Positions 32,132 through 32,994 of a stretch of DNA of 39,297 nt are shown one piece after another. The DNA lies in the IMG/VR virus record IMGVR_UViG_3300025154_000229, positions 1-39,297 of that record. One strand, given 5' to 3'. Within the stretch, counting starts at the first letter, position 1. Each line of letters opens with the position of its first letter. This stretch comes from a virus. The notes below the pieces were generated by a model. It was not told where the DNA came from and did no database searches. It was given only the letters and a program-made list of their open reading frames with translations. The translations under genes were made by a program, and so were the position numbers.

Positions 32132-32548
32132 ATGACAATGGAAGGAATAAAAGAACCCGCACCGCTCCGAGACAGAATGTATGAAACTGTATATTTTGAG
32201 GACGGCACTCAATACAAATTTGGCAATACGACAATACCTAAAATTTTAAATAGCAAAGGTAAACCAATTATGGGTATGACACCAGGATTAATAGACCCCA
32301 AAAAAGTAATTATAGTACCGCCGTTAATGGTTAATGAAAATAAATCCACACCACAAAAAGAAAATATTTATTATCTTACTACTCAAAAACTAATAGATAG
32401 ACGGCAAACGGCACTTGAAAATAATGATATGACTGAATTAATTAAAATATGTGAAGAAATAGAATCACGTTTAACAAAACAAAAAGCATCTTGTAAACTA
32501 ACATTAAAAGATAAATTGATTCAGTATTTAAGAACATTGACAAATTAA
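32132..32548 (+). CDS. Unknown 138-residue protein after SSB
   Basis: N-terminal beta part (YFEDGTQYKFGNTTIPK, PPLMVN), then a C-terminal helical region with Lys/Arg. No family recognised. Last gene before the RNA region; its stop overlaps a weak hairpin (TAAGG/CCTTA, about 32546-32562). Confidence 0.5.
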   Translation: MTMEGIKEPAPLRDRMYETVYFEDGTQYKFGNTTIPKILNSKGKPIMGMTPGLIDPKKVIIVPPLMVNENKSTPQKENIYYLTTQKLIDRRQTALENNDMTELIKICEEIESRLTKQKASCKLTLKDKLIQYLRTLTN

Positions 32549-32672: not shown

Positions 32673-32877
32673 GGCACGTGGCGGAATAGAGACGCTAATC
32701 AGATATATGAGAACTTGCTGGGTATTAAGGGCATAATCCCTAAACGTGCTGGCAAGACCGTAGCTGGGTGATGCAGAGATTGTATCAAAGCGGAGGGCGG
32801 CTATCTGGTAAGACGTAAAACGAGGCGTTGCTACACGCCTATCATATATCATTGCAGGAATCGAATACTGTCGTGCC
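32673..32877 (+). ncRNA. 205-nt structured RNA with tRNA-Leu-like 5' end
   Basis: A closing helix GGCACG (32673-32678) / CGTGCC (32872-32877) brackets the element. The first 24 nt, with GTGGCGGAAT and AGACGC, match the D-arm of bacterial tRNA-Leu except for a shorter D-loop. A T-loop-like ATCGAAT lies before the 3' acceptor strand. A 9-bp helix GATATATGA/TCATATATC (32702-32710, 32840-32848) sits where an anticodon stem would be. Inside are CTTGC/GCAAG, AGGG/CCCT, ACC-TAGC/GCTA-GGT, TGATGCA/TGTATCA (7 bp, 5-nt loop) and GGCGT/ACGCC. Options: a tRNA-Leu with a structured intron, a tmRNA-like molecule, or a new tRNA-like RNA. Known group I or tmRNA cores were not recognised. Confidence 0.5.
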
Positions 32878-32883
32878 TTTCAT

Positions 32884-32957
32884 GGTGTTATTGATGTAAC
32901 TGGTTAACATATACGGCTGTGACCCGTATTACATGAGTTCAAATCTCATATAACACC
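32884..32957 (+). tRNA. tRNA-His (anticodon GTG)
   Basis: Complete cloverleaf by hand. The acceptor stem is GTGTTAT/ATAACAC, with the extra G at -1 (32884) facing C73 (32957), the identity mark of tRNA-His. The D-stem is ATG/CAT with GG in the loop. The anticodon stem is TACGG/CCGTA with loop CTGTGAC giving GTG (32919-32921). The variable loop has 4 nt. The T-stem is ATGAG/CTCAT with loop TTCAAAT. CCA is not fully encoded. Confidence 0.92.
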
Positions 32958-32994
32958 CACAAATGAGTATGTTTTATTATTGGAGATTAGAGCT

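Follow-up and report, generated by a model that had tools for sequence, protein, structure and literature searches.

A structured phage RNA with a tRNA-like shell and a conserved junction, best explained as belonging to a widespread and so far undescribed family of non-coding RNAs

The window, meaning the whole stretch of 39,297 bases analysed here, is a phage record whose head genes (terminase, portal, protease and capsid) are of the HK97 type. Between a hypothetical gene that ends at 32548 and an ordinary tRNA-His lies the element under study, whose parts are collected in the table below. An earlier note had described this segment from its letters as a structured RNA, and most of the details hold. 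The ends pair as an acceptor-like stem, the 5' end carries a D arm like that of tRNA-Leu, a perfect 9-bp helix takes the place of the anticodon stem, and further helices are evident inside the arms of that helix. The neighbouring tRNA-His is genuine and called by ARAGORN, at a distance of 7 nt and not the 6 nt given before. Two further statements did not survive: the 'exact promoter' said to precede the RNA is unsupported, no sigma-70-type promoter being found upstream on the plus strand, and an alternative pairing of GGCACG with CGTGCT is not conserved among relatives and was rejected because CCTAAACGNGC is near-constant there even though the acceptor strands differ or are absent. The predicted fold energy is -66 kcal/mol against -55.9 in shuffles (z -2.3), and the conserved fold with compensatory changes in relatives is far more telling than this energy.

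Features of the element and its tRNA neighbour in the window, with the evidence for each
Feature	Position	Strand	Basis
Whole element: tRNA-like shell, three-way-junction core, type A payload	32673..32877	+	Core found by a covariance model built without the window
Acceptor stem, 5' strand GGCACG	32673..32678	+	Pairs with 32872-32877; covaries over 53 relatives, 0/2000 swaps as good
D-arm-like hairpin GCG-GAATAGAGA-CGC (stem 32681-83 / 32693-95), like tRNA-Leu	32681..32695	+	Hairpin at the same place in 51/51 parsable relatives
UAAUCAG, linking D hairpin to P1	32696..32702	+	Conserved in closed and permuted array forms
P1, 5' strand GATATATGA, in anticodon-stem position	32702..32710	+	P1 covariation (53 relatives); inner 3 pairs 100% paired in 14 type A members
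P3, 5' strand CTTGCTGG, closes payload	32714..32721	+	Pairs with 32805-32812; z=7.5; double changes; array form, 0/5000 swaps as good
P4 hairpin ATT...AAT	32724..32737	+	Relatives: ACU/AGU, AUC/GAU, ACA/UGU, AUU/AAU; register by hand
Conserved C-CCTAAACG	32738..32746	+	32738-32740 predicted to pair with 32793/32795/32796; RNAalifold columns 41-81, four pair types
P5 hairpin CTGGC/GCTGG (32749-53 / 32763-67)	32749..32767	+	98.6% of cells paired in 14 members; double changes at two pairs
Pseudoknot, 5' strand, P5-loop CCG	32758..32760	+	Pairs with CGG 32798-32800; double changes at all three pairs
Variable hairpin GATGC/GTATC	32770..32786	+	Window sequence only; unlike-sequence hairpins at the equivalent place in relatives, by eye
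Pseudoknot, 3' strand	32798..32800	+	Double changes at all three pairs
P3, 3' strand CTGGTAAG	32805..32812	+	Covariation; double changes
Conserved junction strand GTAAAACG	32815..32822	+	Near-invariant in relatives
P2 hairpin AGGCG-TTGCTACA-CGCCT	32823..32840	+	Stem near-invariant; loop-payload pairing suggested in two other payload classes
P1, 3' strand TCATATATC	32842..32850	+	Covariation over 53 relatives; inner 3 pairs 100% paired in 14 type A members
T-arm-like hairpin GCAGG-AATCGAAT-ACTGT	32854..32871	+	Sequence; T-arm-like hairpin in 47/53 relatives vs 34% of shuffles
Acceptor stem, 3' strand CGTGCC	32872..32877	+	Acceptor covariation
tRNA-His (GTG), ordinary	32885..32958	+	7 nt 3' of the element; ARAGORN, Rfam

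The element is no tRNA or tmRNA. It lacks the cloverleaf with an anticodon arm, and the tRNA-His is the sole call in the window both by ARAGORN (tRNA/tmRNA mode) and by Rfam. Within 32673-32877 no Rfam 15 family matches at gathering level; at E<=5 only a 13-bit chance match to a human lncRNA family appears, and the tmRNA models RF00023 and RF04321 give none. The third acceptor pair is C32675-G32875 and not the G-U of alanine identity, the payload classes described below are unrelated and structured, and no conserved reading frame for a tag could be seen by eye. No Rfam model for group I or other self-splicing introns matches, and the element is probably no intron. Similarly, the models for ROOL and GOLLD give no match. 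In the other members the Rfam matches are tRNAs inside or beside the RNA, a permuted tmRNA around one copy, and neighbours, while the elements themselves belong to no family. The earlier reading, a structured RNA that starts like tRNA-Leu and is neither an ordinary tRNA nor a group I intron or tmRNA, is thus supported by ARAGORN and all Rfam 15 models. Neither of the findings that the earlier note had named as speaking against it, a lack of covariation or a match to a known intron or tmRNA model, was made, and the covariation is strong. A description of this RNA was found neither in Rfam 15 nor in the searchable papers on tRNA-like, permuted and structured phage RNAs, a scope that leaves out subscription papers and most preprints, so that an earlier description is possible.

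Relatives are found in many phages. A sensitive blastn search of phage records matched short segments of strong conservation; the phages concerned are unrelated and infect Listeria, Arthrobacter, Aeromonas, Pseudomonas, Acinetobacter and E. coli. Hafnia phages are among the further relatives. The most conserved piece, GTAAAACGAGGCG-loop-CGCCTAYC, served as a search pattern and was present in at least 120 stretches of IMG/VR but in only 7 of a collection with one genome per bacterial species (Enterococcus, Shouchella twice, Dyadobacter, Gordonibacillus, Rhodanobacter and a Clostridiaceae MAG), which indicates that the RNA is chiefly viral. Phage CUS-3 has its copy between Q and S, and of 5426 complete E. 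coli genomes 116-119 contain this version at close to full length, where the matches listed carry no annotated feature; a larger count of 726 genomes is inflated by the flanks, the element itself being present in 119 of 5426. In E. coli K-12, the regions examined of the prophages DLP12 and Qin lack it. Together these copies place the RNA in phages and prophages of Proteobacteria, Firmicutes, Actinobacteria and Bacteroidota, and as unannotated prophage sequence in some complete E. coli genomes.

Covariation was measured in 53 closed-form copies, less than 75% alike and picked by motif rather than by pairing, by comparing the partner strands within one molecule with strands exchanged between molecules. 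In these copies the order of parts is acceptor strand, D-like hairpin, UAAUCAG, P1, GAGAA, P3, payload, P3', GUAAAACG, P2 hairpin, P1', T-like hairpin and acceptor strand. P1 (z=17.1), the acceptor stem (z=11.4) and P3 (z=7.5) all covary, with 0/2000 swaps as good for each. Both the acceptor pairing and the T hairpin are kept in relatives, the test by which the shell was judged tRNA-like, and the lengths of the acceptor and T stems most commonly sum to 12-13 bp in this set, near the 12 bp of tRNA; CCA is encoded in just 3 of the 51 parsed copies. The results show a constant core in which P1, P2 and P3 meet in a three-way junction with near-invariant joining strands. Its inner helices (P3, P5 and the pseudoknot), as determined by comparison, differ from those of the minimum-energy fold, whose helix CTTGCTGG/GCTGGCAAG was replaced by P3 because actinophage members retain only the P3 pairing.

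Fourteen members share the payload of the window, termed type A (CCTAAACG...GGTGATG...), and were aligned with the variable hairpin excluded. In this alignment 91% of the proposed pairs are standard, against 75% in shuffles and at most 45% with the partner strand slid, and double changes in P1, P3, P5 and the pseudoknot occupy 49 cells against 17 in shuffles. With registers set by hand for one-base shifts, pairing reaches 99-100%, a figure that the hand placement itself favours. Furthermore, a covariance model built from 13 relatives, the window excluded, gives the core at 32700-32852 a score of 81.4 bits (E=1.3e-23), its sole match in the 39,297 bases. Applied to ten other phage records, the same model finds a single copy in each; two of the ten (L003 and L018) are among the sequences it was built from.

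The comparisons also show that the design is modular, with a tRNA-like shell, a conserved junction core and an exchangeable payload. At least five unrelated payload classes occur, some of them tRNA-like cloverleaves, and the payloads frequently contain a pseudoknot or are shaped like a tRNA. The arrangement of the parts varies as well. At 14 phage loci, mostly in or beside tRNA arrays, the RNA is circularly permuted and reads P3', P2, P1', hairpin, UAAUCAG, P1 and P3; in this array form P1 and P3 again covary, with 0/5000 swaps as good. Actinophage members have the core and no tRNA-like shell. Conversely, shells with unrelated inserts were found in Leuconostoc phage Ln-9, Bacillus phage KLEB27-1, Acinetobacter phage AB3, Pseudomonas phage phi1 and Klebsiella phage BUCT_49532, and these shell-only copies suggest a wider class of tRNA-shaped phage RNAs. 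At the loci L160, L161, L162, L158 and L159 the same shell sequences surround short unrelated inserts and the core is absent; for two of these RNAs (L161 and L162) single-sequence folds were no better than shuffles.

A contact between the P2 loop and the payload is suggestive in two payload classes. In nine RNAs with tRNA-like payloads the bases that open the P2 loop could form pairs with the anticodon loop (CAGAA/UUCUG, UCA/UGA and UCAC/GUGG are examples), with 63 of 50000 swaps as good. In nine Listeria-type payloads the loop is predicted to pair at a fixed place (CCAG/CUGG, CCCG/CGGG, CCGG/CCGG, CCAA/UUGG and CUGAU/AUCAG), with 40 of 50000 swaps as good. We grade both pairings as suggestive because the segments were picked by hand and eye and the sets are small. 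When the P2 loop is compared with the whole payload in all classes together the signal is weak (z=2.0), and within the payload class of the window no partner for its own P2 loop could be fixed.

A tRNA lies within 300 nt outside 14 of the 53 closed-form copies, and an ARAGORN tRNA overlaps the element in 13 of 53, by a rough boundary that takes in the tRNA-His of the window 7 nt downstream. The neighbouring protein genes vary between phages (terminase, holin, HNH, Rha and capsid), which suggests that the RNA has no fixed protein partner. In Achromobacter phage JWDelta the element is housed in a permuted tmRNA: the acceptor piece with its CCA lies on one side, the coding piece begins on the other, and the element fills the intervening segment. 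This permuted tmRNA (L152:1292-1676, KF787094.1) matches RF04321 with 95.8 bits, is not among the annotated features shown, and has the tag ANDDYIRLAA as read from the coding piece.

Among known RNAs, tmRNA is the nearest in plan. It shares a tRNA-like shell, a long helix for the anticodon stem and an internal pseudoknot with the new RNA, permuted forms exist in both, and one copy lies in a phage permuted tmRNA gene. In contrast, the new RNA has a D hairpin, a core without sequence match, no conserved tag frame and C-G as third acceptor pair, and the likeness fails on the sequence model, the tag and the G-U acceptor pair. Part of the membership also resembles tRNA-Leu, in the D-arm sequence GGCGGAATAG(A)GACGC and the T/acceptor stack, but without the anticodon arm or the long variable arm of that tRNA. 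Stable RNA C of phage T4 (species 1), a late RNA detected by Northern blot and of unknown function (PMC9697503), is a 139-nt phage RNA that likewise adjoins a tRNA cluster. In its predicted fold (L164:909-1047, minus strand; z=-4.6) the T arm is canonical and the anticodon arm is replaced by a long hairpin. The core motif AAAACGAGGCG is absent from T4 RNA C and RNA D, however, and the new RNA was not assigned to the RNA C family. For the loop contact, the CrPV intergenic IRES pseudoknot I and the T-box specifier are known cases in which an RNA loop pairs with a real or imitated anticodon; unlike in these, both pairing sides here would lie within one phage RNA, and the likeness, drawn on the loop contact, is a tentative lead.

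Based on these results, the best explanation of the element is that it belongs to a widespread and so far undescribed family of phage non-coding RNAs, and the wide conservation of a structured RNA points to an important function. As to what that function is, we tentatively favor, with somewhat less than even confidence, a stable, tRNA-processed phage RNA that would mimic tRNA and tie up factors that act on tRNA or in translation, possibly serving as bait. The tRNA-like shell, together with the tRNA or tmRNA setting, leads us to infer that host tRNA maturation (RNase P and 3' trimming) may act through the shell or the adjoining tRNAs to set the ends of the RNA and make it stable. With less assurance, a kissing interaction may tie the P2 loop to the payload; with a tRNA-like cloverleaf as payload the kiss would be a codon-anticodon-like contact, and the molecule would then imitate a tRNA caught by its anticodon. 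More speculatively, the RNA could act in trans as a tRNA or translation mimic that occupies host tRNA-handling factors, the most plausible use being bait for tRNA-targeting defence enzymes and, after that, a ribosome ligand. The many payloads on a constant scaffold suggest an arms race. Since actinophage forms dispense with the shell, the core would be the part that does the work, with the shell as a chassis that can be left out, and a shell that imitates tRNA cannot account for the function in full.

An alternative, fairly unlikely in our judgement, is that the RNA binds the ribosome or the tmRNA/EF-Tu pathway and regulates translation during infection in a tmRNA-like or IRES-like manner, rather than baiting defence enzymes. 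The tmRNA-like layout, the codon-anticodon-like loop contact and the copy inside a phage tmRNA gene are consistent with such a regulator, yet the payloads differ, the tag frame is not conserved, the Rfam tmRNA models do not match, and tmRNA has G-U where the third acceptor pair here is C-G. It is improbable that the element is a structural or assembly RNA forming a homo-oligomer or storage particle. It shares with ROOL and GOLLD a complex structure and the setting of phage tRNA islands, and these structured phage RNAs are of unknown function, often lie near such islands, and in the case of GOLLD may hold tRNAs in their linkers (PMC12286853); at about 200 nt, however, it is far smaller than either and has no Rfam match to their families.

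Less probable again is a self-processing ribozyme or degenerate intron within a tRNA or tmRNA gene. The insertion falls where tRNA introns sit, the junction is near-invariant, circular permutation is known from ribozymes, and copies lie between tRNAs and in a tmRNA intervening segment, all of which would suit this explanation; excision would leave a tRNA without an anticodon arm, though, actinophage copies have no flanking tRNA-like exons, and no intron or ribozyme model matches. The least probable of these alternatives is a cis-acting transcript element, such as a processing spacer, leader or insulator of tRNA arrays or late operons. The RNA does often lie in tRNA-gene gaps or between Q and lysis genes, but its positions and downstream genes vary widely, and an elaborate conserved core with an exchangeable payload exceeds the needs of a spacer.

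Returning to the tRNA-mimic reading, a more general form of it, which we regard as unlikely, is an RNA chassis shared among phages, whose constant junction would use a codon-anticodon-like kiss to hold a tRNA-like bait that can be exchanged, with a tRNA-shaped shell around it or alongside, and which would thereby occupy host enzymes that recognise tRNA, or ribosomes. If true, this kiss-and-bait chassis would be a new class of modular anti-host RNA machine. The combination of tRNA shape, a setting in tRNA or tmRNA genes and exchangeable parts makes the old question of the stable phage RNAs (T4 RNA C, ROOL and GOLLD) testable on one short RNA.

Several copies have unusual RNA neighbours. In the arrays, the tRNA directly upstream of the permuted core often has an abnormal or enlarged anticodon arm (L008:1894-1974, L017, L038, L039, L052 and L100), and in phage D6 such a tRNA is annotated as 'tRNA-OTHER'. 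In Rhodococcus phage REQ2 (L155:1034-1330) a core copy is followed by two tRNA-like sequences with odd D and anticodon regions. Stenotrophomonas virus Jojan60 has, beside a core copy and four tRNAs, an 83-nt 'mini-tmRNA' (L156:1084-1166, ON045087.1) that matches the Rfam tmRNA model with 61.8 bits, both ends of the model included; CCA is present, the acceptor has a G-U pair, and there is no room for a tag frame. Finally, Listeria phage B025 carries a match to the Rfam mcrA sRNA (RF03010, 78 bits; L002:1776-1826) just downstream of its copy of the RNA.
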